A stretch of DNA of 64,000 nucleotides from a virus. The notes beneath the pieces were generated by a model. It had not been told where the DNA came from, did no database searches, and worked only from the letters and a program-made list of their open reading frames with translations. Position 1 is the stretch's first letter; every line of letters begins with the position of its first letter. The stretch covers positions 1 to 64,000 of the IMG/VR virus record IMGVR_UViG_3300032308_001297. One strand, written 5' to 3'. Both the position numbers and the translations under genes were made by a program. Positions 2,301 to 63,527 of this stretch are shown here, in pieces.

Positions 2301-3062
2301 ATGAGTACAGTAACTAATGTTGCAGTAGCAACTGAGTCTAAGGTAGTTGATCTTCGCGGAATGTGGATAGGATTGGGAGTCCTAAACGTATTCTATCTTA
2401 TCGTTAGAATCTACGAGCAAGTCTTTGGATGGCGAGCAGGTCTAGATTCTTTCGCTCCAGAATTTCAGACATATTGGATGTCCATTCTCTGGACAGAGAT
2501 TCCACTTGAGCTAGTTTCAGGACTAGGTCTTGCAGGTTATCTTTGGAAGACAAGAGATCGCAATCTTGCTGCCGTAACTCCTCGCGAGGAGATGCGTCGT
2601 TTGGTTACTCTTGTTCAGTGGCTTGTTGTGTATGCTGTCGCCATTTATTGGGGCGCATCCTTCTTCACCGAACAGGACGGTACTTGGCATATGACTGTTA
2701 TTCGTGATACCGACTTTACACCAAGTCATATTATCGAGTTCTATATGTCATATCCAATTTACTCAATTATTGCAGTTGGCGCATTCTTCTATGCTCGTAC
2801 TCGTATCCCTTACTTTGCTCAGGGATATAGTCTCGCATTCTTGATTGTTGCCATCGGACCATTTATGATCATTCCAAACGTTGGACTCAACGAATGGGGT
2901 CATACTTTCTGGTTCATGGAAGAACTATTCGTAGCACCATTGCATTGGGGCTTCGTATTCTTCGGCTGGATGGCACTTGGTGTGTTCGGCGTTGTTCTCC
3001 AAATTCTAGGGCGTGTTCATGCTCTTGTTGGGCGTGAAGGAGTAGCTCTACTAGCAAAATAA
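2301..3062 (+). CDS. pmoC: PmoC, particulate methane monooxygenase subunit C
   Basis: This is a full-length 253-residue membrane protein with about six hydrophobic segments, the normal size for PmoC, starting after a GGAG site. PmoC forms, with PmoA and PmoB, the membrane copper enzyme that oxidises methane to methanol. Copper-site ligands are intact: Asp126, His130 and His143 reproduce the D-x3-H-x12-H pattern of the CuC site, and Asn197, His201 and His215 reproduce the N-x3-H-x13-H pattern of CuD, with the same 54-residue gap between sites as in the Methylococcus protein. AmoC is the alternative, but from memory the sequence is closest to type II methanotroph PmoC. No pmoA or pmoB is in the window. 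A dual promoter and structured leader precede it. Its codons look more GC-ending than those of its neighbours, as expected for a host-derived gene. Confidence 0.95.
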   Translation: MSTVTNVAVATESKVVDLRGMWIGLGVLNVFYLIVRIYEQVFGWRAGLDSFAPEFQTYWMSILWTEIPLELVSGLGLAGYLWKTRDRNLAAVTPREEMRRLVTLVQWLVVYAVAIYWGASFFTEQDGTWHMTVIRDTDFTPSHIIEFYMSYPIYSIIAVGAFFYARTRIPYFAQGYSLAFLIVAIGPFMIIPNVGLNEWGHTFWFMEELFVAPLHWGFVFFGWMALGVFGVVLQILGRVHALVGREGVALLAK

Positions 3063-28821: not shown

Positions 28822-29072
28822 GAGTTCGTAAGAAACCAGTTGAAGTAGAAGCAATGTTTTTTACTGAAAATAAAGCAAAAGAAATTTCTGATTGGTGCAA
28901 TGGTCTTTTAGTTTCTCGTGGAGAAAACACGCAACCATTTATTCAAATCATGACACTAGAAGGTATAATGACTGCACGTCTTGGAGATTATATAATTAAA
29001 GGAGTGTATGGGGAGTTTTATTCATGCACCCCTGCTGTTTTCGAAAAGACTTATGAGGTAATAAATGAATGA
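28818..29072 (+). CDS. PGDYG-domain phage protein, 84 aa
   Basis: RVRKKPVEVEAMFFTEN at the N-terminus and MTARLGDYIIKGVYGEFYSC near residues 50-70 are the hallmarks of a very common small phage family. No enzymatic function is established. It overlaps the thyX start. Confidence 0.75.
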   Translation: MRVRKKPVEVEAMFFTENKAKEISDWCNGLLVSRGENTQPFIQIMTLEGIMTARLGDYIIKGVYGEFYSCTPAVFEKTYEVINE

Positions 29073-29793
29073 AGCTAAGATCATTGCTATTACGCAACCA
29101 TCATTAAGATTAGATTCCCCACATGATAAATCAGGAGAAGCAATGACTGCTGAAGGGTTTATTGCTTACACGGCCAGAGTGTCTAATCCATCCAATCAGC
29201 ATAATACATTAACAGCTTCTAAACTTTTAAGTTATTTGATTAAGAACAAACACTGGTCGCCTTTCGAGATGGTCAGTGTAGTAATGGAAATAAATACCAC
29301 ACGAGATATTGCTAGACAAATTCTTAGACATAGATCGTTTTCATTTCAGGAATTCAGCCAGCGTTATGCTGATCCAACTTCGGACCTTGGGTTTGTTGAA
29401 AGAGAAACAAGACTCCAGGACCAGAAGAACAGACAGAATTCTATTGAAACAAATGATGAAAATTTGCAGAAGTGTTGGTATGCTAAACAGAAGCAACAGA
29501 TACATGAAGCTAAGTTAGCATATAAGTGGGCGATTGAGAATGGTGTTGCAAAAGAACAAGCAAGAGCAGTGTTACCGGAAGGATTGACTGTTTCTAGAAT
29601 GTATATGTCAGGTACACTTCGTTCTTGGATTCATTACATTGACGTTAGAGCAGAAGCTGGCACACAGAAAGAACATCGTGAGGTTGCTATTTCTGCAAGG
29701 GAAGAAATTCTAAAACACTTCCCATCATTAAGTGGATATTGGTATTCTGCTGATATCATTGAAGATAAACCTTGGTGGAGGTTTTGGTCATGA
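29065..29793 (+). CDS. thyX: Flavin-dependent thymidylate synthase ThyX
   Basis: This 242-residue protein carries the ThyX signature RHRSFSFQEFSQRY (about residues 91-104), matching RHRxxSxxxxSxR, which binds FAD and dUMP. It methylates dUMP to dTMP using methylene-tetrahydrofolate and NAD(P)H. With the ribonucleotide reductase and the dCMP deaminase (49256) it provides dTTP for replication. It lies in a run of overlapping genes. Confidence 0.95.
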   Translation: MNEAKIIAITQPSLRLDSPHDKSGEAMTAEGFIAYTARVSNPSNQHNTLTASKLLSYLIKNKHWSPFEMVSVVMEINTTRDIARQILRHRSFSFQEFSQRYADPTSDLGFVERETRLQDQKNRQNSIETNDENLQKCWYAKQKQQIHEAKLAYKWAIENGVAKEQARAVLPEGLTVSRMYMSGTLRSWIHYIDVRAEAGTQKEHREVAISAREEILKHFPSLSGYWYSADIIEDKPWWRFWS

Positions 29794-39453: not shown

Positions 39454-40038
39454 ATGTCATTTACTGATCAGTATTTTAATGAAGTAGTAGATATTGCCAA
39501 TGAAATCGATAAAAACAAAATTGAGATCATGGCTCGTGGTCTTGCAGACATCACTGCACATGCTGGGCGTGTGTTTGTGCTTGGCGTGGGTGGTAGCGCT
39601 GGTAACGCTTCCCATATGGTTAATGATCTTCGAAAGCTATGTGGGATCGAAGCATACTGCCCCACAGACAACGTTCCAGAACTTACAGCTAGAACGAACG
39701 ACGAAGGGTTTGACACCGTTTTCGAAGGATATCTCAGAGTAAGTAATCTAAACAAGTATGATTGTATCTTTATTCTATCAGTTGGTGGTGGTAATAAAGA
39801 AAAGAATGTATCAGTTGGGCTAGTAAAGGCAATTGATTATGCGAATTATGTTGGCGCTCATGTTTACGGTATTGTCGGCAAGGCAGATGGATACACTGCT
39901 GAAAAAGGGAATTGTGTGGTGGTTATTCCTCAGCTGGCTCCAGACAGAGTCACACCACACTCAGAAGCATTCCAAGGAACAGTCTGGCATTGTTTAGTTT
40001 CTAATCCTGTTTTGCAGAAAAATAAAACAAAATGGTAA
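39454..40038 (+). CDS. gmhA: Sedoheptulose-7-phosphate isomerase GmhA (SIS domain)
   Basis: This 194-residue protein has the SIS-domain signature VLGVGGSAGNASHMVNDL (about residues 42-59), and VGGGNKEKNVS plus HSEAFQGTVWHCLV at the end, matching GmhA. The enzyme converts sedoheptulose 7-phosphate to D-glycero-D-manno-heptose 7-phosphate, the first step of activated heptose synthesis. An AGGAT ribosome site precedes it, and the phosphatase gene overlaps its end. Confidence 0.88.
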   Translation: MSFTDQYFNEVVDIANEIDKNKIEIMARGLADITAHAGRVFVLGVGGSAGNASHMVNDLRKLCGIEAYCPTDNVPELTARTNDEGFDTVFEGYLRVSNLNKYDCIFILSVGGGNKEKNVSVGLVKAIDYANYVGAHVYGIVGKADGYTAEKGNCVVVIPQLAPDRVTPHSEAFQGTVWHCLVSNPVLQKNKTKW

Positions 40039-40574
40039 AGGCAGTATTCATTGATCGTGATGGTACGATCAACAAACTTATCCATGGCAGAGAACAAGAA
40101 AAACATGTGTGCCCTTGGTTGTATTCAGAGTTCGAATATATTGCTGGAGCTCATGAAGCTGTTGCTAAATTTAAAAGTTTAGGTTATACTACACATCTAG
40201 TAACAAATCAACCTGACGTTGATGATGGTTATACAACCGAAGAAACTATGAACGCTATCCATGACACTATCAAGAAAGATTTAAAACTTGATACTATCAA
40301 CGTAGCAAGAACACGTAACACACCCGAATACAAACCAAACTCAGGTATGATAGATAGTATAGTTGAAAAATGGGTTGTGACCAGAGAACGTAGTTGGATG
40401 ATTGGTGATACATGGCGTGATGTTGTTGCTGGTCATCGTGCTGGTTTAATCACTATATATATTGGTATTACATATAGAGCACCAAAAGAATATCCTAATA
40501 TTTTTCCTGATTATTGTGCAGTAGATCTACTTGAGGCGAGTAAGATCATAGAACAAAACGAGGCTGGAAGATGA
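40032..40574 (+). CDS. gmhB: Heptose bisphosphate phosphatase GmhB-like (HAD family)
   Basis: This 180-residue protein has the HAD nucleophile motif FIDRDGTINKL with Asp8 and Asp10, LVTNQPDVDDG (motif II), and MIGDTWRDVVAGHRAGL (motif IV). HisB-N/GmhB proteins remove the 7-phosphate from heptose 1,7-bisphosphate. The Cys-rich zinc loop of E. coli GmhB is reduced or absent. It overlaps gmhA by seven bases and the transaldolase by four. Confidence 0.85.
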   Translation: MVKAVFIDRDGTINKLIHGREQEKHVCPWLYSEFEYIAGAHEAVAKFKSLGYTTHLVTNQPDVDDGYTTEETMNAIHDTIKKDLKLDTINVARTRNTPEYKPNSGMIDSIVEKWVVTRERSWMIGDTWRDVVAGHRAGLITIYIGITYRAPKEYPNIFPDYCAVDLLEASKIIEQNEAGR

Positions 40575-41311
40575 ACATTGAGATTTATGCTGATGGAGCA
40601 GATTATAAAGGTATTATTGAATCTGCAAAAAATGAAAAAATTACTGGTTTTACTACTAATCCAACACTAATGAAGCAAGCTGGTATTAGCGACTATGAAG
40701 GGTTTGCTAGGAGAATCATTACTGATCTAAAAACAATGCGTCCAGGCACAAATATTTCTCTAGAAGTATTTGCTGATGATGTAGAAGGAATGTATGCTCA
40801 GGCAAAGAAGATCGCTGCTTGGGGCAAAAAAGCAGAATATGATGTTTACGTTAAGATTCCAATTACTAACACTCATGGCGAGTCAAACGCTGGTCTAGTT
40901 AGACTTCTAAACGAAGAAGGTGTTAAGGTAAATGTTACTGCTGTGTTTACTCCAGAGCAGACAAAGGGCATTCTAGAAAACATTAATACGAATACACCAA
41001 TTATTATTTCTATTTTTGCTGGTCGTATTGCTGACACTCTAAGAGATCCGGTTCGTTCTACAATAGATTGCGTCAATCAGACATGGAATTTTGAACCAAA
41101 GAATATGGAAAACGTAAAGTTCCTTTGGGCTTCATGTCGTGAACAGTATCATTTGATCATGGCTGAACAAGCTGGTTGTCACATTATTACAATGCTTCAC
41201 GATCAAATCAAGAAGCTACATCTAACTGACAAAAACCTTGAAGAGTTTTCTAGAGAAACTGTTCAGATGTTTTATAACGATGCTACTGCATCAGGATTTA
41301 GGATTGACTAA
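40571..41311 (+). CDS. talC: Transaldolase, TalC/fructose-6-phosphate aldolase type
   Basis: This 246-residue TIM-barrel protein has TTNPTLMKQAG (residues 28-38), the Schiff-base Lys95 in VYVKIPIT, and VTAVFTPEQTKGIL. Small transaldolases of this type are known in cyanophages, where they redirect carbon to the pentose phosphate pathway. Here the gene lies inside the heptose operon, so it could produce sedoheptulose 7-phosphate, the substrate of GmhA. It is coupled to neighbours by ATGA and TAATG junctions. Confidence 0.88.
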   Translation: MNIEIYADGADYKGIIESAKNEKITGFTTNPTLMKQAGISDYEGFARRIITDLKTMRPGTNISLEVFADDVEGMYAQAKKIAAWGKKAEYDVYVKIPITNTHGESNAGLVRLLNEEGVKVNVTAVFTPEQTKGILENINTNTPIIISIFAGRIADTLRDPVRSTIDCVNQTWNFEPKNMENVKFLWASCREQYHLIMAEQAGCHIITMLHDQIKKLHLTDKNLEEFSRETVQMFYNDATASGFRID

Positions 41312-42315
41312 TGAAGGGTTTTGAAGAGAACGAAATTTCCGAGAAGGCTAACGGCGGAACTGAGATCGCCAAGCGCAAACTAGCAGAGATTCTTCCTGAT
41401 GAATTGCTAGAAAATTTTCAAATTATTTGTTCACGCCCACGTGATTTAGATGGAAGTAAGATTCGTTTGTTCTGGTGTCATGATCTACCAGAAGATCCAG
41501 AGTCTGCTAAGTTTCGTGATGTAAAATGGCGTAACAAGTTTCATAAGTTTATCTTTATTTCTAACTGGCAGTATCAACGCTATCAGTTAGTTCATGGTCT
41601 ACCTTATGACCAAAAATCAATTATTCTAGAATCAGGTATTATTCCTGCTCCGGAAAGTTGTTTTGATAAGCCAGACGATAAGATTCGTTTAGTTTATACA
41701 TCAACCCCGCAGCGTGGTCTTGATATTCTTGTTCATGTATTTAAGGAACTAGCAAAAGACAATCCAGATATTCATCTTGATGTGTTTTCTTCTTTTAAGA
41801 TCTATGGTTGGGACGACGCTGATAAACAGTTTGAACATTTGTATGATGAAATTCGTAATCATCCACAAATGACCTATCATGGATTCGTTCCGAATGATCA
41901 ACTCAAAGAACATCTTAACAAGTCTCATATCTTTGCTTACCCCTCTGTTTGGACAGAAACATCCTGCAGGGCCATGCTCGAAGCTATGTCCGCTGGTTTG
42001 GTATGTGTTCATCCTAATCTTGGCGCTCTGCCGGAATCTTCCGGTGGTTTGAACGTTATGTTCCATGGTGATCTTAACGATATCAATAATCATGCAGCTG
42101 CATTTGCTGGTAATCTAAACGCTGCTATTGATTTCGTAAGAACAAAGAACCATGATAAGATGATCCGCTTCAATAAGATATTTGTTGACAGCAGATATAA
42201 TATCGATTATGTTAAGAATCGTTGGCAAGCAACTCTAGAAAAGTTACTTACAATATATCCTGACGATGAATCTCGTTGGTTTCCAAAGGAAATGTTTACA
42301 TATAAGGTAGAATAA
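41311..42315 (+). CDS. Glycosyltransferase, GT-B fold (GT4-like)
   Basis: This 334-residue protein has an N-terminal ANGGTEIAKRKLAE loop and LFWCHDLPEDPE, a central VYTSTPQRGLDILVHVF, and a C-terminal nucleotide-sugar site FAYPSVWTETSCRAMLEAMSAGLV with the Glu-x7-Glu-type acidic pair. It would transfer a nucleotide-activated sugar, most simply the heptose made by this operon, to an unknown acceptor. No membrane segment. Confidence 0.82.
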   Translation: MKGFEENEISEKANGGTEIAKRKLAEILPDELLENFQIICSRPRDLDGSKIRLFWCHDLPEDPESAKFRDVKWRNKFHKFIFISNWQYQRYQLVHGLPYDQKSIILESGIIPAPESCFDKPDDKIRLVYTSTPQRGLDILVHVFKELAKDNPDIHLDVFSSFKIYGWDDADKQFEHLYDEIRNHPQMTYHGFVPNDQLKEHLNKSHIFAYPSVWTETSCRAMLEAMSAGLVCVHPNLGALPESSGGLNVMFHGDLNDINNHAAAFAGNLNAAIDFVRTKNHDKMIRFNKIFVDSRYNIDYVKNRWQATLEKLLTIYPDDESRWFPKEMFTYKVE

Positions 42316-42317
42316 TT

Positions 42318-43310
42318 ATGATTCTTACAAGAACTCCACTGCGTGTTTCATTCTTTAGTGGGGGAAGTGACATGCCATCCTTCTACGAACAGGAGGATGG
42401 CGCTGCTCTTTCTGTAACTATTGATAAATTCATTTATGTAATTGCACACAAAGTTCCACATATGGGTGTGCGTTGTATGTATGATGACGTCGAAGAACAG
42501 CACGACATTGAACAAATGCAGCATGCTATTACTCGTGAAACCTTAAAGTATTATGGTTATACAAAGGAGATCACAGTTGCATCTATTTCAGATATTATTA
42601 CTAAGGGTTCTGGGCTCGGTTCTTCTTCTGCTTTTACTGTGGGTTTGGTAAAAGCAGTATCTTGTTCCAAGTATGATAACAGTACACGTAGATATGTTGC
42701 TGATATTGCATGCGAAATAGAAATGAACAAGTGCGGATATCCTGTTGGTAAGCAAGATCAATACGCTGCAGCATGGGGAGGAATGAATTTATTTAAATTT
42801 AAGAAAAATGGGGAAGTAACAGTAGACGAATTACGTTTAACTAATCCTCACGTCCAAGCTCTTGAGAAAAATCTAATGCTTGTTTATTCTGGGCGTTCTA
42901 GAAATGCTAATAATATTCTCCAGAAACAACAGAAAGCCATGTTAGACATAGACAAATTTAACAAAGTTAAACGTTCTAAAGATAAGGCGTTCGAAGCAGT
43001 AGATCTTCTACACAAAGGTAAGATCGACGATTTCGGTAAACTATTACACGAATCTTGGCTCGACAAGAAAGGTGTCTGTGAAGAAATTACGCAAGACTAT
43101 TTCGACGAAATCTATGAAACAGCTATAAAGGCTGGAGCTCTTGGTGGTAAACTACTAGGTGCTGGTGGTGGTGGTTTCTTTATCTTCTACGTGCCGGAAA
43201 AGTATAGAACTTCTGTAGAGGGTGCAATCTCTACAAACCATACTGATTGTAGGATCTATGATTTTCAGTTTTATGGATCTGGATCTCACATTGTTTATCA
43301 TACTGGATAA
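42318..43310 (+). CDS. hddA: D-glycero-D-manno-heptose 7-phosphate kinase HddA-like (GHMP family)
   Basis: This 330-residue GHMP kinase starts with RTPLRVSFFSGGSDMP, has the ATP-binding GSGLGSSSAFTVGLVKA (about residues 96-112), and motif 3 GALGGKLLGAGGGGFFIFY (about 275-293). This is the HddA subgroup that phosphorylates heptose 7-phosphate at C1. It completes the sequence isomerase, kinase, phosphatase, nucleotidyltransferase. It ends the operon. Confidence 0.87.
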   Translation: MILTRTPLRVSFFSGGSDMPSFYEQEDGAALSVTIDKFIYVIAHKVPHMGVRCMYDDVEEQHDIEQMQHAITRETLKYYGYTKEITVASISDIITKGSGLGSSSAFTVGLVKAVSCSKYDNSTRRYVADIACEIEMNKCGYPVGKQDQYAAAWGGMNLFKFKKNGEVTVDELRLTNPHVQALEKNLMLVYSGRSRNANNILQKQQKAMLDIDKFNKVKRSKDKAFEAVDLLHKGKIDDFGKLLHESWLDKKGVCEEITQDYFDEIYETAIKAGALGGKLLGAGGGGFFIFYVPEKYRTSVEGAISTNHTDCRIYDFQFYGSGSHIVYHTG

Positions 43311-43748: not shown

Positions 43749-44606
43749 GTGATTATTGTTGACTTGAATCAAGTTATGTTATCTAATCTTCTTATGCAAC
43801 TTGGTAATCATACCAACGCCCAGGTAGAAGAAAATATGGTTCGCCATATGATTTTAAACTCCCTCCGATCTTATAAAGTAAAGTTTGGTGAAGACTATGG
43901 CGAGATGATTATCGCTTGTGATAATACAAATTACTGGCGTAAACAGCGTTTTCCTTATTATAAGGCTAATCGCAAAAAGAATATTGAGTCCTCAGAACTT
44001 AACTGGAAAAATATCTTCGAGTGCATGAATAAGATTCGTGCAGAACTAAAAGAATACTTCCCTTATAGGGTTATAGATGTCGAGTCTGCAGAGGCTGATG
44101 ATGTAATCGCCACACTAGTTTCTAAATTCGGCTCTGAACTAAATACTGGCGAAAAGATTCTTATTCTTTCTGGCGACAAGGATTTCATACAGCTGCATAC
44201 ATATGCTAATGTTGAGCAATATGATCCGACCCGTAAGAAATGGATAAAACATGACGATCCAGAGAGATTCTTACACGAACATATCCTTAAAGGAGATGCT
44301 GGGGATGGAGTTCCTAATGTTCTTTCTCCTGATAATGTTTTTGTTGTAGGCGATAGACAAAGACCTTTGACAGCTAAGAAACTAGAAAAGATTATGGGCA
44401 CAGAGTTAGAAGAAATGGATACAACTCTTGCTCGAAATTATTCTCGTAATGCATACTTGATTGATTTGAGTTTCACCCCGAATGTTATTCGAGAGAAAGT
44501 TATGGAACAATATATCGCTCAAGAAAATCGTGATCGCAGTAAACTACTAAATTACTTTATCGCAAATAAACTCAAGAATCTAACCGAACATTTGAGTGAG
44601 TTCTAA
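43749..44606 (+). CDS. rnh: RNase H / 5'-3' exonuclease, T4 Rnh-like
   Basis: This 285-residue FEN-family nuclease starts at GTG with AGGTGA upstream. Acidic active-site clusters are visible: IIVDLNQ at the N-terminus, IIACDNTNYWRK, ESAEADDVIATL and ILSGDKDFIQL, followed by GDAGDGVPNV, a helix-hairpin-like K-ion site. T4 Rnh removes RNA primers from Okazaki fragments. Length matches T4 (305). Confidence 0.9.
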   Translation: MIIVDLNQVMLSNLLMQLGNHTNAQVEENMVRHMILNSLRSYKVKFGEDYGEMIIACDNTNYWRKQRFPYYKANRKKNIESSELNWKNIFECMNKIRAELKEYFPYRVIDVESAEADDVIATLVSKFGSELNTGEKILILSGDKDFIQLHTYANVEQYDPTRKKWIKHDDPERFLHEHILKGDAGDGVPNVLSPDNVFVVGDRQRPLTAKKLEKIMGTELEEMDTTLARNYSRNAYLIDLSFTPNVIREKVMEQYIAQENRDRSKLLNYFIANKLKNLTEHLSEF

Positions 44607-45485: not shown

Positions 45486-46244
45486 ATGCAAGAAGAATCA
45501 ACAAAAAGATTAACCCGTAGAGAAAAAAGATTACTTCGACAACAAGGAAAAGAACCAAAGGAAAATTATCAAGAGAAAATAAATTTTCATCTTAAACATT
45601 TTCATCCTCTAACAGACAATCAAAGATTGGCATTCAATTCTTTTGAGGATGATAAAAATTTGATGCTTCATGGTATTGCCGGAACAGGTAAATCCTTTAT
45701 GGCGTTATACCTTTCTTTGAAGCAAATCCTTAGTGATCCTGAATGTGTTTATAAGAAAGTTGTTATCGTAAGATCAGTGGTCCCAACGAGAGACATGGGA
45801 TTTCTTCCTGGCAGCGATAAAGAAAAAACTAAAGTATATGAAGCGCCTTACTATGCGATCTGCACTGAATTGTTTGGTAGAGGCGATTCGTACGAGTATA
45901 TGAAAAAGAGAAACGTAATTGAATTTATTTCTACTTCTTTTATTAGAGGCATTACACTTAACGATTGTATCGTTATCGTGGATGAAATGCAAAACGCTAC
46001 TCTTCATGAGCTTGACTCTGTTATTACTCGTATTGGCCACAACTGCAAAGTAGTATTCTGTGGCGACTTTAGACAGTCAGATTTTACAAGAGATCACGAA
46101 CGTAGTGGATTAACAGATTTCATGCGTGTTGTTAAAAACATGAAATCGTTTGATCTTATTGAGTTCGAAGCAAAAGATATTGTAAGATCTTCTCTGGTTA
46201 AAGAATATATTATTCTCAAAGATAAAATGAGAATCATAACATAG
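45486..46244 (+). CDS. phoH: PhoH-like ATPase
   Basis: This 252-residue protein has a basic N-terminus, LTDNQRLAFNSF, the Walker A GIAGTGKSF (about residues 62-70) and Walker B IVIVDEMQNAT, with GDFRQSDF near residue 195. PhoH proteins are NTPases often in the host Pho regulon and common in marine phages; the function may be RNA-related. The gene directly precedes the plcP-agt pair, in the same direction with an eight-base gap. Confidence 0.9.
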   Translation: MQEESTKRLTRREKRLLRQQGKEPKENYQEKINFHLKHFHPLTDNQRLAFNSFEDDKNLMLHGIAGTGKSFMALYLSLKQILSDPECVYKKVVIVRSVVPTRDMGFLPGSDKEKTKVYEAPYYAICTELFGRGDSYEYMKKRNVIEFISTSFIRGITLNDCIVIVDEMQNATLHELDSVITRIGHNCKVVFCGDFRQSDFTRDHERSGLTDFMRVVKNMKSFDLIEFEAKDIVRSSLVKEYIILKDKMRIIT

Positions 46245-46252
46245 GAGGAATT

Positions 46253-46996
46253 GTGTCAAAAGATAAAAAGAAAAGATATCGTTCAATCTTTATATCTGAT
46301 GTGCACCTTGGAACCCGTCACTCTAACGCAGAAAAGCTATTAGAATTTCTTAAATCCACTGAAGCTGATAGGTATTATCTTATCGGTGATATTATAGATG
46401 GTTGGATGATGAGAAAGAAAGTTTATTGGCCACAAGAGCACAACAATGTGGTTCAATTCTTTTTGAAACAATCTAAAAAAGATATTAAAGTTATTTACAT
46501 AACAGGAAACCATGATGAATTCCTCAGAGAATACTCAGGAACTGTCATGGGTAACATTCAGATAGTAGATAATATTATACACACTGGTGTTGATGGTAAA
46601 AGATATCTTGTTATTCATGGAGATCAGTTTGATCTTGTAACAATGAATGCTAAATGGCTTGCTATGATTGGTGGTTGGTTATATGATAGAATGATTGATT
46701 TTAATAGACATCTACAATCTATATACAATATACTGGGAATTAATGGATTTTCTCTTTCTGCTTGGGCAAAATCTAGCGTAAAAGAAGCAGTAAACTTTAT
46801 CGGCGATTACGAAAAAGTAGTTGCTGATGCTGCCAAAAGGAGATGCGTCGATGGGGTGGTTTGCGGCCATATTCATCATGCTAATATATGTTCTTTTGAT
46901 AATATTGAATACATGAACTGTGGCGATTGGGTAGAATCATGCACTGCAATCGTAGAATACGACAATGGAAAGTTTGAGATTATAAGGAAACTATAA
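46253..46996 (+). CDS. plcP: PlcP-like phospholipase C (LpxH-like metallophosphoesterase)
   Basis: This 247-residue protein starts at GTG behind GGAGG. Metallophosphoesterase motifs are complete: Asp16-Val-His18, Gly-Asp46 with Asp49 (IGDIIDGW), Gly-Asn86-His-Asp88 (GNHDEF), VIHGDQFD and CGHIHHA. The family is annotated as UDP-2,3-diacylglucosamine hydrolase, but this sequence, with WPQEHNNVVQ and CGDWVESCTAIVE, matches the PlcP branch known from Sinorhizobium and marine heterotrophs, which splits membrane phospholipids into diacylglycerol and phosphate head group under phosphate limitation. The overlapping downstream Agt-like gene supports this. LpxH activity is the alternative. Confidence 0.82.
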   Translation: MSKDKKKRYRSIFISDVHLGTRHSNAEKLLEFLKSTEADRYYLIGDIIDGWMMRKKVYWPQEHNNVVQFFLKQSKKDIKVIYITGNHDEFLREYSGTVMGNIQIVDNIIHTGVDGKRYLVIHGDQFDLVTMNAKWLAMIGGWLYDRMIDFNRHLQSIYNILGINGFSLSAWAKSSVKEAVNFIGDYEKVVADAAKRRCVDGVVCGHIHHANICSFDNIEYMNCGDWVESCTAIVEYDNGKFEIIRKL

Positions 46997-47985
46997 TGAA
47001 TATTACTATTTTTACTGATGCGTGGGATCCGCAAATCAATGGTGTTGTTACAACATTAAAAACAACTGTCAAACATCTTGAGTCCCGTGGACATGAAGTT
47101 AAAGTAATTCATCCTGGTCTTTATAAATTGACTATTCCATTACAACCATCAACTGGCATTTTCATGCCAGTTTTGCCTATGGGTATTGCTGACGAAGAAG
47201 TAAAGAATGCTGACAAGATTCACATCGCAACAGAAGGAGCAATAGGTCTTGCCGCTAGATATAGCTGTAAAAAGTACAAGAAGTCTTTTACAACTTCCTT
47301 TCACACAAAATATCCGGAATACGTTAAGATACATACTGGTATTTCACCAAGAGTTAGCGGTGAGTATTTTCGTTGGTTCCATAGAGACAGCAGTGCTGTT
47401 ATGGTTACAACCCCCAGTATGGTTGATTACTGTAAGGAGTTGGATATCAAACATCTGAAAATTTGGTCTCGTGGAGTGGATACAAATCTATTCCATCCAA
47501 TGTATCCGAAACCAAAGGGTGAATTTATTTCTGCTGTTTATTGTGGTAGAATATCTGCAGAAAAGAATCTCGAAGCATTTCTTTCTATTGATAATCCAAC
47601 GATCACCAAAACTCTTATTGGCGATGGACCGCAATTAGAAGAATACAAAGCAAAATATCCAGATGCTATATTCCTTGGTAAAATGGATGCTAAAAGAATT
47701 GCTGCAGAGTTACCTAAACATGATGTGTTTGCTTGGCCTTCGCTAACAGATACATTTGGACTTGTTGTGTTGGAAGGAATGGCTTGTGGACTACCTGTTG
47801 CTGCATTCGATAACGAAGTTAATCGTTACATTATTGAAGACTCTGTTTCTGGTTTCTTAGTAAAAGAACATTTAGAATTAGCTATTGAAGATGCTATACA
47901 TTTAAAACCAGAAGATGCAGTAGCAAGAGCAGCTAAGTTCTCTTGGGAAGCAGCAACCGATCAATTCTTGGAGAATATAGCATGA
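46996..47985 (+). CDS. agt: Agt-like diacylglycerol glycosyltransferase (GT4)
   Basis: This 329-residue GT-B enzyme starts MNITIFTDAWDPQINGVVTT, has IHIATEGAIGLAARYSCKK and FTTSFHTKYPEY, a central LKIWSRGVDTNLF, and the C-terminal donor site AWPSLTDTFGLVVLEGMACG. These are the hallmarks of the alpha-glycosyltransferases (MgtA/Agt group) that glycosylate diacylglycerol in alphaproteobacteria. Its start overlaps the plcP stop by one base, the same gene order as in bacterial lipid-remodelling operons. Together they would replace phospholipid by glycolipid. The sugar donor is not predictable. Confidence 0.8.
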   Translation: MNITIFTDAWDPQINGVVTTLKTTVKHLESRGHEVKVIHPGLYKLTIPLQPSTGIFMPVLPMGIADEEVKNADKIHIATEGAIGLAARYSCKKYKKSFTTSFHTKYPEYVKIHTGISPRVSGEYFRWFHRDSSAVMVTTPSMVDYCKELDIKHLKIWSRGVDTNLFHPMYPKPKGEFISAVYCGRISAEKNLEAFLSIDNPTITKTLIGDGPQLEEYKAKYPDAIFLGKMDAKRIAAELPKHDVFAWPSLTDTFGLVVLEGMACGLPVAAFDNEVNRYIIEDSVSGFLVKEHLELAIEDAIHLKPEDAVARAAKFSWEAATDQFLENIA

Positions 47986-48635
47986 CAGGAAGAACATTCT
48001 TCGTTCTTGACTATTGGCCAAAACCAGAGTATGGTAAGATTTATAACTTTCATTATGTAACAGTAGATGGATCAATGCCAGATCTACAAGTAAAGTTTGT
48101 TCTTTCTGATGATAGAAAAGATATTCTTTATGTCGACTACGACGCCGAAGGTAAGTGGGTTGATACTTGGTATATGAGATACATTCCAGGTCAAGGATTA
48201 ATGGAATGGAGAGACGACTATCCTACAGGCGGATGGTTTACTAAACGTAAAAAGATTGTTATGAATCCTGGCATTGGCTGGGGAGAGACCGGAACAATTG
48301 GTAGCTTCTATCAGAACTTTCCTAAGATGGATCCATTATCTTCTAATCCTCCGCAGTTTATGTCTGGAACTCAAACTGTTATTTGGGAGTCATGGTTACC
48401 AGAAATGATCCTCAGCAACGGGGATAAGTATACTGATATTGTAACAATGGTCTACCAGCAGTCTTGGGGAAAGAAAACTTCTGGCGCTCGTTATTATATG
48501 GCGAAAGGAATTGGTCCTATCGCAGTTCAGTGGATTGCTCCTCATCCATTCAAACCAGGACAGTTTGTCACTACGGCTAGAATGGATGCGAAATATACGG
48601 TGACTTATGGCACGCAGAAAGATATTCAAACATAA
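47982..48635 (+). CDS. Hypothetical protein in the plcP-agt operon, 217 aa
   Basis: The ATG at 47982 overlaps the agt stop (ATGA). The protein is beta-rich with many Trp, Tyr and Gly residues (VLDYWPKPEYGKIY, GWGETGTIGSFYQNFP) and no signal peptide or membrane helix; it may be a calycin- or lipocalin-like barrel that binds lipid or sugar, but no family is recognised. Its position suggests a part in the glycolipid pathway. Confidence 0.5.
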   Translation: MTGRTFFVLDYWPKPEYGKIYNFHYVTVDGSMPDLQVKFVLSDDRKDILYVDYDAEGKWVDTWYMRYIPGQGLMEWRDDYPTGGWFTKRKKIVMNPGIGWGETGTIGSFYQNFPKMDPLSSNPPQFMSGTQTVIWESWLPEMILSNGDKYTDIVTMVYQQSWGKKTSGARYYMAKGIGPIAVQWIAPHPFKPGQFVTTARMDAKYTVTYGTQKDIQT

Positions 48636-49269
48636 TCTAGTTCCAGAAGTAGAGATTACTACTGAAACAATTGACGGTAAAAGACACTATGTGTTACCGA
48701 GTGGAGAAAAATTTCGCTCGGTAACAACTGTATTGTCAGACGCTTTAGATAAAACAGCACTACTAGAGTGGAGAAAGAAAGTTGGTGAGGAAGAAGCTCA
48801 AAAGATTTCTACACAAGCTGCTCGTCGTGGAACCGCCGTACATTCCATCGCAGAGCGTTATGTGCTCAATGAAGAGGAATATCTTCGGGATTCTATGCCT
48901 TCTGGAATTGATTCTTTTAAAAGCATTCAAACGCTTTTAGATAAACATGTAGATAACATTCTTGGTATTGAGTTACCTTTGTATTCTACTGTTTTAAAAA
49001 CAGCAGGAAGATGCGATCTTATTGCAGAGTTTGATGGCGTTCCTTCTATAATTGATTTTAAAACAAGTCGCAGATTAAAAGAGGAAAGCTGGATTGAGTC
49101 CTACTTCCTACAAACAACTGTCTATTCTATGATGTTTGAGTATATGTATAAAATAGAAATTCCCCAGATCGCAATACTAATAGCAGTGGATCATGAAGAG
49201 CCACAACTATTTGTAAAGGATCGTGGAGAATATGTTAATAGAGTTATAGAGATCTTTACTGCCAGCTAA
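48607..49269 (+). CDS. RecB/Cas4-like PD-(D/E)XK exonuclease
   Basis: This 220-residue protein has RGTAVHSIAERY (His in motif I), AGRCDLIAEFDGVPSIIDFKTS (Asp, then Asp-x-Lys, about residues 137-158) and a YFLQTTVYSMMFE motif with Gln-x3-Tyr, the RecB-family nuclease signature. Similar exonucleases are found in cyanophages. It probably degrades host DNA or processes ends. It starts within the upstream gene and its tail overlaps the converging deaminase by 14 bases. Confidence 0.8.
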   Translation: MARRKIFKHNLVPEVEITTETIDGKRHYVLPSGEKFRSVTTVLSDALDKTALLEWRKKVGEEEAQKISTQAARRGTAVHSIAERYVLNEEEYLRDSMPSGIDSFKSIQTLLDKHVDNILGIELPLYSTVLKTAGRCDLIAEFDGVPSIIDFKTSRRLKEESWIESYFLQTTVYSMMFEYMYKIEIPQIAILIAVDHEEPQLFVKDRGEYVNRVIEIFTAS

Positions 49270-49672
49270 CGCCAAACATTCCTTCTTCGTCTGTAGAGTA
49301 TACTGTTTTTTTGATACCAAAATGCTCAATGGCTTTAGAACACCCAGAGCAAGGTTCGGCCAAACCGCTAACCCAGTTTACATCTCCCTTATTAGTTTTC
49401 TTGACACGATAAACATAAAGGGTTGCATCTTTTAGATCCTCTTGTTCTACGATCCTCAATGCATTGATGATACAATCTACCTCTGCATGTTTAAAAATCG
49501 CATCGTTGTTCTTAGAAAATCTTTTCTGCAAAGGATGAGATTTATCGGAGTTAAGACCAACAGAAATTACCTCGTTACGAAGAACGAGGCAAGCAGCAAG
49601 TTTCATTCTCATATTATTGTTAATGGCAATTCGACGAACGAAAGCCATATATTTCAAATCACGTGAATTCAT
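49256..49672 (-). CDS. dCMP/cytidine deaminase family protein
   Basis: This 138-residue zinc deaminase has HAEVDCI (His, catalytic Glu) near residue 75 and PCSGC near residue 112 as the zinc-binding Cys pair. T4-like phages use dCMP deaminase to feed dUMP to thymidylate synthase; the window's ThyX fits. The N-terminus lacks the extra zinc site of T4 Cd, and another substrate cannot be excluded. It converges with the nuclease gene and overlaps the sulfotransferase start side by 14 bases. Confidence 0.8.
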   Translation of the reverse strand: MNSRDLKYMAFVRRIAINNNMRMKLAACLVLRNEVISVGLNSDKSHPLQKRFSKNNDAIFKHAEVDCIINALRIVEQEDLKDATLYVYRVKKTNKGDVNWVSGLAEPCSGCSKAIEHFGIKKTVYSTDEEGMFGVSWQ

Positions 49673-50177
49673 CAGAGTATCCTAAATTGCGGAAGTCTCG
49701 AGCATAGATAATTCGAACTCTATCAATCAAATAAGAAGTATAGTCTTTATAATACTGTTCTTTCGAGTAAGAGCCAACATTTATTTTTGGTAAGGCTATA
49801 TTCATATCTCTCTCTAAATCTGAGATGTTTTCAAATCTATAGATCTTATCCATTTCTGTTTTACCATCTTCAAAGATATAAAAAGATTGATCATATTTAA
49901 TAAGCGGAGTTTTCTCCGTAGCCATTCCTTGTTCTATCATAGATAAAAAGTTTTTGAAAGATATGCTAGACGTATTAAATCTGCGAAAATGATGATAATA
50001 ACTATACGCTCTCGTAAAAGGATTTCTTACGACAGAGAATTTAAATGTGTCAGAAGGTATGTTATTATTCTGTTTAATTACATGGTAAGGATCATGACCG
50101 ATATGCCATGTCCTTACCCATTTATCTTTACCTATAGATTCTCTTAATGCAATCCCTGCAGTTTTAGGAATGTGCAC
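49659..50177 (-). CDS. Sulfotransferase
   Basis: The open frame continues upstream through the tRNA-Gly gene, but no ATG lies between; the first plausible start is GTG at 50177, giving 172 residues beginning VHIPKTAG. This is the PAPS 5'-phosphosulfate-binding motif itself, so the N-terminal strand is shortened. FSVVRNPFTRAYSYYHHF (about residues 47-64) is the 3'-phosphate-binding motif. Such enzymes move sulfate from PAPS to sugars or other acceptors. No ribosome site is visible, so the gene may be degraded or translated from within the tRNA-containing transcript. Confidence 0.7.
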   Translation of the reverse strand: MHIPKTAGIALRESIGKDKWVRTWHIGHDPYHVIKQNNNIPSDTFKFSVVRNPFTRAYSYYHHFRRFNTSSISFKNFLSMIEQGMATEKTPLIKYDQSFYIFEDGKTEMDKIYRFENISDLERDMNIALPKINVGSYSKEQYYKDYTSYLIDRVRIIYARDFRNLGYSDEFT

Positions 50178-50188
50178 AAAAAGAAAAT

Positions 50189-50263
50189 TGGAGCGGGAGA
50201 TGGGAATCGAACCCACTACGAACAGCTTGGAAGGCTGACACTCTACCAATGAGTTACACCCGC
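50189..50263 (-). tRNA. tRNA-Gly (TCC anticodon)
   Basis: The cloverleaf has acceptor GCGGGTG with CTCCCGC (one U-U mismatch at position 6-67), anticodon loop CTTCCAA, T arm GTGGG-TTCGATT-CCCAT and encoded CCA. The stop codon of the upstream membrane protein lies in the 5' acceptor strand. Confidence 0.93.
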
Positions 50264-50576: not shown

Positions 50577-51713
50577 CTAGATCAACATTCTAAATTTATC
50601 GTATAAATCTAGACCTTCAAAATTTACATCCAAAGAATGAGCCGTCCATATATCATGCGTGGCTGTTTTGGGGTATCTATTTTCTCTAAAAGCTCTATCA
50701 TAAAACACAGGCGATTGTATCGCCTTTCTCATACAATTTGCACCTTTTTCATGTGCCATTTTCCAGAAATCGTTTTCGAAAACAGAACCAGCAAAATAGT
50801 GCATCATAATAAGATCTTCATTTCCACTTATTCTTTGATGGTATTTAAGATTAACTTCTTCTTCTGTTTGATTATTTTCCACCCAGTATTCCCAAGCGAG
50901 TCTCTGAACGTAGTCAGTAGTATTAATAGTCGTGGCTTCTAAAGGTTCCAAGAAGAAAGAAGCATTGCCATTATATGCTACTCTACCATCAAAGTTTTTC
51001 TTTCTAATAAAACTTTTAAAAGGAAATGTAATAGTATCTTCGCTAGGAGTTAGATCGTATTCTCTGAATATATTATTACTATCTTCTTTAATCTGATCAA
51101 GAGTAGCATAATTATCGTTATACATATAACCTATGCTACATCTATTTTTCAAAGGTATACCAAAGAACCAACCATGTGGTCTTGCTTCGGTACGAGTATA
51201 ACTAAACTTTGGATAATCCCAATAACACTGAGTAACATGAACAGCGTTCACAGGAATATTCATCAAATCAATCTTTGAAAGATCTTTAGGAAACCCAGAA
51301 CAGTCAAATATATAATCAGAATCAATTTGATCGTGTAAGATATTTTGTTCTATGGTATTAATTCTTGGATCAAATCTTAGTTTTTCAAAAATATAATTCT
51401 GCAACTTAACTGCATTCACATGCCAAGCAATCATCGGCGTAGCAAAAGCATGATGAAATGTGTTCTTAGACCAATTCTTTTTAAAAATAGAATATTTAAA
51501 AGAACCGTCTACTTTATCTAGATCATAATGTTCAAACCCCAAGTTCTCATACAAACTCTTACAAACAAGAGGAGTAAGACCTTCTCCTACTGATTGTGTT
51601 TTAACATTAGGATCATAGTACCAATCTATTTCCCAATCAGTCCATTTTAGAAAGTGTGCTGCAGCAAAACAACCTGCAGTCCCTCTACCAATAATAGCTA
51701 ATTTTTTTGTCAT
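50577..51713 (-). CDS. Flavin-dependent tryptophan-halogenase-like protein (short form)
   Basis: The protein has 378 residues from the ATG at 51713 (ATGA overlap with the upstream gene). The FAD-binding loop is IIGRGTAGCFAA, the SVGEGLTPLV strap segment follows, and the catalytic Lys lies in GSFKYSIF, equivalent to the Lys of PrnA. The diagnostic W-x-W-x-I-P motif reads WFFGIP, with the second Trp replaced by Phe. Known enzymes have about 450-540 residues, so this is a reduced version. A related cyanophage halogenase has been shown to accept many substrates; the present substrate is unknown. Confidence 0.8.
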   Translation of the reverse strand: MTKKLAIIGRGTAGCFAAAHFLKWTDWEIDWYYDPNVKTQSVGEGLTPLVCKSLYENLGFEHYDLDKVDGSFKYSIFKKNWSKNTFHHAFATPMIAWHVNAVKLQNYIFEKLRFDPRINTIEQNILHDQIDSDYIFDCSGFPKDLSKIDLMNIPVNAVHVTQCYWDYPKFSYTRTEARPHGWFFGIPLKNRCSIGYMYNDNYATLDQIKEDSNNIFREYDLTPSEDTITFPFKSFIRKKNFDGRVAYNGNASFFLEPLEATTINTTDYVQRLAWEYWVENNQTEEEVNLKYHQRISGNEDLIMMHYFAGSVFENDFWKMAHEKGANCMRKAIQSPVFYDRAFRENRYPKTATHDIWTAHSLDVNFEGLDLYDKFRMLI

Positions 51714-52081
51714 TGACAAACTGTAATCATATATGGATCGCCAAAGATATATCCGAAAGTATCCCAAGGATCTGGGTATGTTGTGCACACAGGACGAGGG
51801 ACAGGAACCTGTTCAATAATTACCTGTGGTGTTACTGGCATCATATAAACTTGATTAGTAACAATACCAACACCATTTGGAACATACTGCGGAGGAATAA
51901 CCTCCACAACAGGAGCAGGAGCCACGGGAACTGGAACAGGAACAGTCTTAACAACTTTCTTTACGACTGTTTTTGGACGAGTGTAATAAATCTTACAATC
52001 GTTACAGACATCGATCTCTTGACCTGCATAAGCAGGAGTAATCAAAAGACAAAGAGCAAGAGAGAGTTTCTTAATATCCAT
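51710..52081 (-). CDS. Exported Pro/Val-rich protein, 123 aa
   Basis: Starting at the ATG at 52081, the protein has a signal peptide (MDIKKLSLALCLLITPAYA) and a mature part with a Cys pair (CNDC), a Pro/Val stretch (VKTVPVPVPVAPAPVVEV) and aromatic C-terminus with two Cys. Extended, periplasm-spanning proteins have this composition. It overlaps the upstream Gly/Tyr-rich gene by 11 bases and the halogenase by four. Confidence 0.6.
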   Translation of the reverse strand: MDIKKLSLALCLLITPAYAGQEIDVCNDCKIYYTRPKTVVKKVVKTVPVPVPVAPAPVVEVIPPQYVPNGVGIVTNQVYMMPVTPQVIIEQVPVPRPVCTTYPDPWDTFGYIFGDPYMITVCQ

Positions 52082-60729: not shown

Positions 60730-61265
60730 TTTACCTCCAATTGTTTCATAATATGTTCAATAATCTTCTCTTGATCCATAAAACAATTATTATTAAAACG
60801 TTCAACATTAAACATTAACATCATATTTGAAAGAATATTAGCAATCTTGGTTTCACGACCCTGTAACCAAGTTTCGTTCTGATTACTACCACGCTGTCTG
60901 TAACGATCTTTTCGAATTTCACTCTCAGTCTGCAGATAAATGATCTCTAATTCATAATTCTCTAAACAATGTTCAAGGAAAGATGATGTGAAAAGGCGAT
61001 CGCCTTCATAAAGAACGACTGCATCTTTATTTAAACTTGCTAGGAATTTAATTGCTTCTGGCTGAACAGCCATTGACATACGATCAGTCCCAGAGAACGT
61101 TTCGCCTTCGTCATACTTACCAAGGATATAATTATAATCGTATTGTAGATACGGAACAAGTTTTACTTCATCATAAACTTTGAGCCAATTATATTTCTCA
61201 ATAATCTTCTTCATAAGAGTGGACTTACCGGAACCTGGTTCGCCACCAATCGCAATAACTTTCAT
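60726..61265 (-). CDS. P-loop nucleotide/base kinase, possible HMdU DNA kinase
   Basis: This 179-residue protein has Walker A GGEPGSGKST (residues 7-16), a VVLYEGDRLF Walker B-like strand, and an Arg-rich lid (EIRKDRYRQRGSNQNETW). It overlaps by one base the amino-acid:DNA-transferase-like gene upstream. In phages with hypermodified thymidine a P-loop kinase phosphorylates 5-hydroxymethyluracil in DNA before amino-acid transfer, and the two genes are neighbours. A dNMP kinase is the alternative. Confidence 0.65.
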   Translation of the reverse strand: MKVIAIGGEPGSGKSTLMKKIIEKYNWLKVYDEVKLVPYLQYDYNYILGKYDEGETFSGTDRMSMAVQPEAIKFLASLNKDAVVLYEGDRLFTSSFLEHCLENYELEIIYLQTESEIRKDRYRQRGSNQNETWLQGRETKIANILSNMMLMFNVERFNNNCFMDQEKIIEHIMKQLEVK

Positions 61266-62251
61266 TATGTAAACCTTTCAAGTCCGACCAACTCAGGCTC
61301 AACAAACAAACCTGTGCAATCTAGAATGCCACTTTCACTATATAAAGCCATTTTACTATTGTTTATCTGATTTGTCAACAGTTTATTATTTAGAGTCTCA
61401 TTACGAGCATCCCACATTGGTTGCCAATCAATACCACTCCATCCATCAGATTCGCACTTAGCAATTTCTTCAGCTTGACGATCAAGATAATATCCAAGGT
61501 AACGACCATGCTTTACTCGGAATAGTTTCTTGAAAGAACACAAGCATGTTTCCATATCAAAGTAATCAGTGTCAGGATAATCTTTCTTTACCTCTTGCAG
61601 AATTTCTCTTGCAGATTCATCTAGATAATTTAGTTCTTTTGAAGTTAGTTTGGCATCATACCAATCAGGTCTACCAACAGCCATACAAAGACCATTACGA
61701 TGGGAACGAGAACCAGAATAATCTTCTAGCATTAAACTACCAGGTTCTAATGGAAGTTCGCAACATTGTTTCAATGTCTGCATATAGAACCAAGTAGAAT
61801 ACCTGCCGAACTTATGGAACTTGGTCTTAACCTCATCCCATAATCTATTAAAGTTTTCATCAGGATTTTGAAGAAGGAATGGTCTGAATGCTTCTATCTG
61901 CGAACGATTGCCAATCCATTCCTTATAAGATATAAATTGTGCAGGAAGATGACCTTTATTCCATTTAGTGTCTATTTGGTAACGGAGTCTTTTGTAATTG
62001 TGGTTGTTCCATTCTTTTAGACGGTCAACGCCAACTAACTCCATATCAGGAAACTCGTTCCATATCACCCATGTTGTAGGAAAGAAATATGTTGTTCCAT
62101 AGATCCAAGCAATCCAGAGTTTCTGCTCTGTATTATGCTCGAATCTATCGAACAAGTAATTGGTCATAAAGATAGCGGGGTCGCAATCTTTAATGGAAAG
62201 CGACCACCGATACCAGTTTATGAAGTCTTGCTTACGCTGCTCTGAATTCAT
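61265..62251 (-). CDS. Putative amino acid:DNA transferase (alpha-glutamyl/putrescinyl-thymine pyrophosphorylase family)
   Basis: The protein has 328 residues from the ATG at 62251; the frame opens 15 bases earlier at a TTG. The segment DPAIFMTNYLFDRFEHNTEQKLWIAWIYGTTYF, split over residues about 25-58, with WVIWNEFPDME and NYKRLRYQTDT-like continuation, resembles helical proteins found in phages with thymidine hypermodification. The C-terminal half has LEDYSGSRSHRNGLC and CLCSFKKLF. It would displace pyrophosphate from modified uracil by an amino acid or amine. The family call is from memory and moderate. Confidence 0.55.
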   Translation of the reverse strand: MNSEQRKQDFINWYRWSLSIKDCDPAIFMTNYLFDRFEHNTEQKLWIAWIYGTTYFFPTTWVIWNEFPDMELVGVDRLKEWNNHNYKRLRYQIDTKWNKGHLPAQFISYKEWIGNRSQIEAFRPFLLQNPDENFNRLWDEVKTKFHKFGRYSTWFYMQTLKQCCELPLEPGSLMLEDYSGSRSHRNGLCMAVGRPDWYDAKLTSKELNYLDESAREILQEVKKDYPDTDYFDMETCLCSFKKLFRVKHGRYLGYYLDRQAEEIAKCESDGWSGIDWQPMWDARNETLNNKLLTNQINNSKMALYSESGILDCTGLFVEPELVGLERFT

Positions 62252-63527
62252 ACGTTTTTGTATCAATAAAAGAAGGAAGATATCGAATTTCGATATCGAT
62301 ATCGGATCTTACATACTTCAGAGCGTTCTTTAACTTGCGTTCATGGTCATGTCTCTTCTCATAATTATCTAAAGAATTATGACTGATTAGCATAATACCT
62401 TTAGTAACTCCCATTTCGCCCAGCTTATTAAGAATAGCACCAACACCATTATTGTAACTGGCGTTCGAACTGATACCAATGATCGCTATATTTTTCTCTG
62501 ATCCAGGATTATACTTTTTGTCAAGTTTCTTTACTTCTGCAGAAACCTCATCGTTTGTCCACTTCTTAAAGTTATGAGTCTTGAGAATTTCTTCTTCCTT
62601 AATATTCTTTTTAATAGCAAGAAGATTACCAGAAATTTCGTTAGGACTCCAATACCTGTTTAGGTTGGCTAAACATACATCAGAAAAATACTTAGAATTA
62701 ATATCACCACCAATACGATCGTAAAGATTCAATATTGCTTTTTTACAATCTTCTTTAGTGTTTCCTTTTTTAATTTTTTCCTGATGATTCATCTCGTAAC
62801 CAAAATCATCATAATTGGCTTGAGAGTCTTCAAACTCAGAACTGTTAATGTAGATTGCTGGAATATTTGTCCATCCTGCTTTAAGAGCAGCATAGCTAGT
62901 ATGATTGCCATCCAAAATTAATTGGCGATCAATTTCAACACAAATAATGATAGGAGAAATACTGTTTCTAGCTCGAGCAGGATCAGAAACCATTCTTTCT
63001 TCAATCGAGTCTACATGTTTCTGATCAAATTGCTCCAAACGAACTTGGTTTCTTGGCAAGATAGATAGTTCTTCGACATTAGCTTCTACAATATCATAAT
63101 AACCACTTTCGATTCGTTGTTTGACCCGCATAACCAAATTGTGGTTTGCGACCCTCAGTGCGCTATTGTCTTCGTTAATAACTTCTTTAGTATTAAGCCA
63201 CTTAGTTGCTGAAGAAATAGCTGATTCTGAAAGATCTTCAACGCTACCCATTCCTTTACCGCCACCCTGATTATTGTTATACCATTTTGGGTTAGAAGCA
63301 GCCTTTACTTTTGAAAGAATATAATGTTCTAGAGCCAAACATTCTTCTCTAGATCCACGCCAAATAACGCTCTTACGTAGTAGCCCATTAGACCATGCAT
63401 GTTTTAATTCAAAGTCTTTAGAGGAAAAGTTATAGTTGTCATCTTCGTTTTCTGTTTGATGAAAACCTACGTATCTTTTACCATTATTAATATTAAACCA
63501 GCCATAGACGATAGCTTCGTATGTCAC
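62232..63527 (-). CDS. GIY-YIG and ParB-like domain fusion protein
   Basis: The protein has 431 residues from a GTG with GGAG upstream. The N-terminal 95 residues have a GIY-YIG-like core (IVYGWFNINNGKRYVGFH) continuing to CLALEHYIL with a possible catalytic Glu. Residues about 155-240 form a ParB/sulfiredoxin-like domain (LDGNHTSYAALKAGWTNIPAIYI). The C-terminal part is helical. ParB-type domains accompany DNA modification and restriction systems in phages, matching the transferase and kinase just downstream. Its end overlaps the transferase start by about 20 bases. Confidence 0.65.
   Translation of the reverse strand: MTYEAIVYGWFNINNGKRYVGFHQTENEDDNYNFSSKDFELKHAWSNGLLRKSVIWRGSREECLALEHYILSKVKAASNPKWYNNNQGGGKGMGSVEDLSESAISSATKWLNTKEVINEDNSALRVANHNLVMRVKQRIESGYYDIVEANVEELSILPRNQVRLEQFDQKHVDSIEERMVSDPARARNSISPIIICVEIDRQLILDGNHTSYAALKAGWTNIPAIYINSSEFEDSQANYDDFGYEMNHQEKIKKGNTKEDCKKAILNLYDRIGGDINSKYFSDVCLANLNRYWSPNEISGNLLAIKKNIKEEEILKTHNFKKWTNDEVSAEVKKLDKKYNPGSEKNIAIIGISSNASYNNGVGAILNKLGEMGVTKGIMLISHNSLDNYEKRHDHERKLKNALKYVRSDIDIEIRYLPSFIDTKTYEFRAA

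Follow-up and report, generated by a model that had tools for sequence, protein, structure and literature searches.

The window, the whole 64,000-nucleotide stretch analysed here, comprises positions 1 to 64,000 of the IMG/VR virus record IMGVR_UViG_3300032308_001297 (162,364 bases, 36.9% GC) and carries two adjacent genes, plcP and agt, predicted to encode a phospholipase C-type metallophosphoesterase and a diacylglycerol glycosyltransferase:

46253-46996, plus strand: plcP, 247 amino acids, GTG start; Pfam Metallophos above the curated cut-off
46996-47985, plus strand: agt, 329 amino acids, ATG start; Pfam Glyco_transf_4 and Glycos_transf_1 above the curated cut-offs

The two open reading frames overlap by one base, the last base of the plcP TAA stop being the A of the agt ATG; a Shine-Dalgarno-like AGGAGGA (46243-46249) lies before the plcP GTG, and a purine-rich stretch precedes the start codon of both genes. 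Both genes are complete, and their presence is far beyond chance because both products are of full length, none of the catalytic residues checked is altered and pN/pS is low. A sequence-only reading of this DNA had described a complete PlcP followed by Agt with a one-base overlap, and the open reading frames, Pfam matches, residues and trees all bear this out. That reading had drawn the cassette from 45486 to 48635, an interval in which all the open reading frames are present; the pair proper spans 46253-47985, and PhoH and the third reading frame accompany it in close relatives only. A scan for sigma-70 promoters and terminators found sites no commoner than in shuffles.

The first protein belongs to the PlcP-type metallophosphoesterases and not to LpxH. 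The window protein is 44-56% identical to bacterial PlcP and 19-21% identical to LpxH, and the nearest bacterial proteins found (50-56% identity) come from Bradyrhizobium, Rhizobium, Mesorhizobium, Methylocystis, Pseudomonas and others, taxa with earlier work on PlcP. Against the LpxH model TIGR01854 it reaches 42.7 bits, far under the curated cut-off of 190.35 bits; in ten bacterial genomes true LpxH scored 335-339 bits and PlcP 38.5-52.8 bits, with the two proteins co-occurring within the same Pseudomonas genomes. The phage protein lies in the bacterial PlcP range and therefore scores exactly like a PlcP. In the tree, LpxH is split from the phage and bacterial PlcPs at 100/100 support, and 26 phage PlcPs, the window protein included, form one clade inside PlcP (95/87), with bootstrap values that are not fully settled.

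The metal-ligand residues D16, H18, D46, N86, H122, H206 and H208 are present in all 32 phage rows. The window protein carries the PlcP-type motif GNHDE where LpxH has GNRDF, with R and F in five LpxH rows, and H87, E89, F126 and N222 set the phage and bacterial PlcPs apart from LpxH. The structure model shows an LpxH-like fold, as expected, with a low-confidence lid (residues about 121-190) and a TM of about 0.56, and it was not used as evidence. The alternative that the protein is LpxH, or an LpxH-like hydrolase with lipid A precursors as substrates, would agree with the closest solved structures, which are LpxH, and with the names of some relatives, deposited as UDP-2,3-diacylglucosamine hydrolase; weighed against the low identity to LpxH, the tree split, the model score and the differing residues at 87, 89, 126 and 222, such an identity is exceedingly improbable, and it was rejected on tree, model score and residues. 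Grouping with true LpxH, which the sequence-only reading had named as the result that would undo it, did not come out: tree, model score, identities and residues favour PlcP. The phage genome also encodes a second Metallophos-family protein (G000:C1:72334-72903, minus strand, 36.6 bits), which does not match the PlcP query.

The second protein is an Agt-type GT4 enzyme (GTcp group), a predicted diacylglycerol glycosyltransferase. Mutation of the SAR11 enzyme GTcp has defined a His-Asp dyad, the UDP-sugar contacts and the diacylglycerol contacts, and has shown that an Asp where GT4 enzymes usually have Glu is essential, D256E losing >90% of activity (PMC8231724). With residue equivalence to GTcp set by motif, all 13 of the 13 mutation-tested positions are identical in the window Agt and in all 25 non-redundant phage Agt rows: G16, G81, G84, H103, R159, R185, K190, D252, T253, F254, G255, E260 and W317. 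These include the catalytic dyad, H103 and D252, present in 25 of 25 phage rows, and the diacylglycerol-contact residues H103, R159 and W317. Bacterial Agt proteins retain nearly all 13 positions and unrelated GT4 enzymes of the same genomes do not; 11 of the 13 aligned unrelated GT4 rows have Glu at the signature Asp position. The Agt motifs GRVAXEKN and FPSXTDTFG appear in the window protein as GRISAEKN and WPSLTDTFG, one or two letters differing in each. In the tree, the phage Agt proteins fall with plcP-linked bacterial Agt and apart from unrelated GT4, the inner branches being poorly resolved; these residues and this placement speak against a grouping with LPS-core transferases, the other outcome by which the sequence-only reading would have fallen. 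The structure model has a GT-B fold (pLDDT 89), which is generic, matches many GT4 enzymes and so is not diagnostic, and no NCBIfam model passes its cut-off for this protein, leaving it with no Agt-level name. SAR11 Agt expressed in Escherichia coli yields MGDG or GADG (PMC4796936).

The pair is kept together while its surroundings change. Viral contigs contain 63 loci with a PlcP relative and 53 with an Agt relative, and agt is the next gene after plcP on the same strand in 52 of the 58 PlcP loci that have at least 1.1 kb of downstream sequence. The 58 loci are not as many independent events, since one phage may be represented by several nearly identical contigs. The neighbours differ by viral lineage and include PhoH (in close relatives), YkuD, NAD epimerases, a curli-like region and an AmoC gene; because agt follows plcP so regularly although these neighbours differ, the pair appears to be retained as a unit. 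Bacteria have the plcP-agt order in 40 of 80 loci and, in another sample, in all 19 PlcP loci of one class. Against relatives, pN/pS is 0.13-0.20 for plcP and 0.14-0.27 for agt, and both genes look to be under purifying selection, as expected for working proteins.

Several viral loci differ in what adjoins the genes. One viral plcP stands without agt and overlaps by 4 bases an upstream family-2 glycosyltransferase, possibly another partner enzyme (L065:7279-8717). Two NAD epimerase/dehydratase genes and a methyltransferase lie upstream of plcP-agt at L045:4837-7945 and might supply UDP-sugars. Judged by eye, plcP and agt at L066:3651-9720 and plcP at L057:6279-8726 adjoin curli-subunit-like and CHASE2/cyclase-like proteins.

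Around the pair and elsewhere in the window, the genes that bear on its interpretation are:

43749-44606, plus strand: RNase H/5'-3' exonuclease (PF02739 and PF09293), in the replication block upstream of the pair
45486-46244, plus strand: phoH, PhoH-like ATPase (PF02562, 154.7 bits, above the curated cut-off; phrog_170), directly upstream of plcP
47982-48635, plus strand: open reading frame of 217 amino acids, sharing an ATGA overlap with the end of agt
48607-49269, plus strand: PD-(D/E)XK exonuclease (PF12705, phrog_298), in the replication block downstream of the pair
2301-3062, plus strand: pmoC, particulate methane monooxygenase subunit C, 253 amino acids (PF04896, 363.2 bits)

The pair lies on the same strand as the replication genes, namely those for the RNase H-type exonuclease, a DUF6433 protein and the PD-(D/E)XK exonuclease. 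The 217-residue reading frame, which follows agt in close relatives only, has no Pfam match and, over 48036-48635, no PHROG match. PhoH had been taken by the sequence-only reading as support for a phosphate theme, a use that we abandoned: in most other lineages the pair occupies other neighbourhoods and PhoH is not beside it, and phoH is probably an incidental neighbour that is only co-transcribed. The window has 5 matches to the Pho box where 6.6 are expected, and none lies upstream of the pair, a result that bears on regulation and not on enzyme identity.

The more telling context for the pair is pmoC. The phage gene is stand-alone and close to methanotroph pmoC, its product being 91-92% identical to PmoC of genomes in the family of Methylocystis silviterrae and at most 66% identical to that of 369 sampled gammaproteobacteria. 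The DNA polymerase and major capsid protein place the phage among the T4-like phages, of which it has relatives of gp43, UvsX, helicase, gp23, gp44 and gp45. By the closeness of its PmoC to the Methylocystis family, the argument also made for published pmoC-phages (PMC7674155), the phage is a pmoC-phage of a probable type II, Methylocystis-like methanotroph. Of the 24 viral records searched, nearly all of them carriers of the pair, 9 also contain pmoC, and many of the other 15 are fragments. In the candidate host family plcP-agt is already present, agt adjoining plcP in seven of the seven plcP-bearing genomes with pmoC, and Methylosinus trichosporium OB3b requires these genes to make the glycolipid GADG and to grow normally at low phosphate (PMC9239053). 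Between the phage PlcP and that of the candidate host family, identity reaches only 52-55%, so that plcP, unlike pmoC, was probably not taken recently from the present host; a recent capture of the pair from that source was set aside as unlikely.

Other genes in the window were recorded as side observations:

39454-43310, plus strand: possible heptose/surface-sugar cassette upstream of the pair, with a GmhA-like SIS protein, HAD phosphatase, transaldolase/FSA, second GT4 and GHMP-family kinase
61265-62266, minus strand: amino acid:DNA transferase (ADDT, PF18724)
29065-29793, plus strand: ThyX-type thymidylate synthase (Thy1)
50577-51788, minus strand: tryptophan-halogenase-like flavoprotein (PF04820, phrog_2928)
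5124-6752, plus strand: Nol-like carbamoyltransferase (phrog_1601, 397.6 bits)
49659-50249, minus strand: sulfotransferase-like protein (PF03567; phrog_3347, galactose-3-O-sulfotransferase), overlapping a tRNA-Gly call at 50189-50263

Together, ADDT and Thy1 make hypermodified thymine in the phage DNA possible.

The proteobacterial plcP-agt operon, known from Pelagibacter HTCC7211, M. trichosporium OB3b, Agrobacterium and Pseudomonas (PMC4796936, PMC9239053, PMC8528852), has the same families, gene order and catalytic residues as the window pair, which differs in being phage-borne, in its one-base overlap, in having no Pho box that was found and in belonging to PlcPs that mostly form their own clade. 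With the freshwater pmoC-phages (Chen et al. 2020, PMC7674155) the phage shares a stand-alone Methylocystis-like pmoC and the features of a T4-like myovirus, and at 162 kb and 37% GC it falls inside the sizes (159-527 kb) and GC contents (32-44%) published for them; the words "lipid", "glycosyl", "LpxH" and "phospholipase" are all absent from the paper's main text, and the genes may stand in its supplement under other names. Stand-alone PlcP homologues of the same family occur in Pelagibacter phage Mosig EXVC030M (43% identity) and Synechococcus phage S-SRM01 (36%), without agt beside them and deposited as UDP-2,3-diacylglucosamine hydrolase/diphosphatase. In Mosig the homologue adjoins a gene, on the opposite strand, for a putative phosphate ABC transporter (L001:4897-6732).

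Phage-borne membrane-lipid genes described before, an acyl-CoA desaturase in Lake Baikal Nitrospirota viruses (PMC7678222) and fabF with a stearoyl-CoA desaturase in Fonsibacter pelagimyophages (PMC7029224), act on acyl chains and do not exchange phospholipid for glycolipid. No annotated phage record matched both window proteins, the PlcP-matching and Agt-matching records being different ones, and the open-access literature gave no report of plcP as a viral auxiliary gene or of a phage diacylglycerol glycosyltransferase, though an earlier mention, for example in supplements, is possible. Within that coverage, the earlier statement that no described phage carries the pair is upheld. The pathway and the pmoC-phages are each known; their combination and the phage-borne plcP-agt operon appear new.

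From the gene identities, residue conservation, conserved pairing, selection and the link to pmoC and host, we infer the activity of the phage enzymes, its timing, the direction of phosphorus flow, the benefit to the phage and any envelope change. We consider it fairly probable that this T4-like phage of a Methylocystis-like methanotroph uses its own plcP-agt operon to swap phospholipid for glycolipid and so free phosphorus. Host phospholipids would be split by PlcP, yielding diacylglycerol and a phosphorylated head group, from which host enzymes would then release phosphate, and Agt would cap the diacylglycerol with sugar from a UDP-sugar, giving glucosyl-, galactosyl- or glucuronosyl-diacylglycerol. 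Diacylglycerol alone disturbs membranes, and its conversion by Agt would keep the membrane intact while phosphorus leaves. The internal membranes of methanotrophs are a large phosphorus store, on which the phage would draw; one copy of the phage genome contains about 325,000 phosphorus atoms, twice its 162,364 bases. Both genes would be expressed together with the replication genes during infection. Because no Pho box rises above chance, the phage may bypass host phosphate control, and because the genes sit in a replication/nucleotide block with no recognisable Pho box, remodelling may run in infection whatever the phosphate status.

Several points weigh against this proposal. PlcP would free a head-group phosphate ester and not free phosphate, so that further host enzymes are needed, and the probable host already owns the pathway. 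Phosphate supply is not otherwise advertised by the phage, because a search for a PstS-type protein gave no match and the Pho box is no more frequent than chance. In a close relative, agt is otherwise conserved but has an in-frame TAA at codon 29 (L005:2848-3840 and L006:1641-2640, identical over 2380 bases here and therefore one variant, not two), so that Agt may be dispensable in that relative. The main rival accepts a genuine PlcP-Agt pair and makes its chief use a change of membrane or surface, in the form of altered receptors, a block to superinfection, tuning of lysis or the upkeep of working methane monooxygenase membranes alongside the phage PmoC. An envelope change is plausible in a genome that has pmoC and, just upstream of the pair, a sugar cassette; glycolipids shifted polymyxin sensitivity in Pseudomonas aeruginosa (PMC8528852), phosphate limitation altered the internal membranes of OB3b (PMC9239053), and the Pho box and PstS results fit this use as well. 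It is opposed by the position of the pair among replication genes and not tail or lysis genes, and by the lack of pmoC in 15 of the 24 pair- or PlcP-carrying records, though many are fragments. We hold this explanation to be somewhat unlikely, although sequence cannot separate its benefit from that of phosphorus supply.

A further rival keeps PlcP as genuine and lets Agt act on another acceptor, for example in the upstream heptose/surface-sugar cassette, giving two enzymes and not one pathway. GT4 enzymes are diverse, the protein passes no NCBIfam cut-off, and the cassette has a second GT4 at 41311-42315; with all 13 Agt residues kept, those for diacylglycerol contact among them, and with the pair moving jointly through differing neighbourhoods, such an arrangement seems improbable. 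The proposal of phospholipid-to-glycolipid exchange can be extended, more tentatively and at less than even chances, to a two-part membrane programme, in which pmoC would sustain methane oxidation while plcP-agt strips phosphorus from the internal membranes, leaving them intact and regardless of phosphate status.

With the window pair, a phage owns a copy of the entire known route from phospholipid to glycolipid; many viral contigs have the pair, and some of these are pmoC-phages. Phage proteins deposited as LpxH-type hydrolases may need renaming. If the enzymes are active, membranes would be a phosphorus source for phage replication, phage phosphorus supply would become testable with two genes, and plcP could be trusted less as an indicator of host phosphate stress than has been proposed (PMC9239053). 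If the two-part programme is true, infection, phosphorus and methane oxidation would be linked in lakes. The finding suggests that a large freshwater virus with a lipid-swap kit may tap host membranes for phosphorus while its DNA is being copied.

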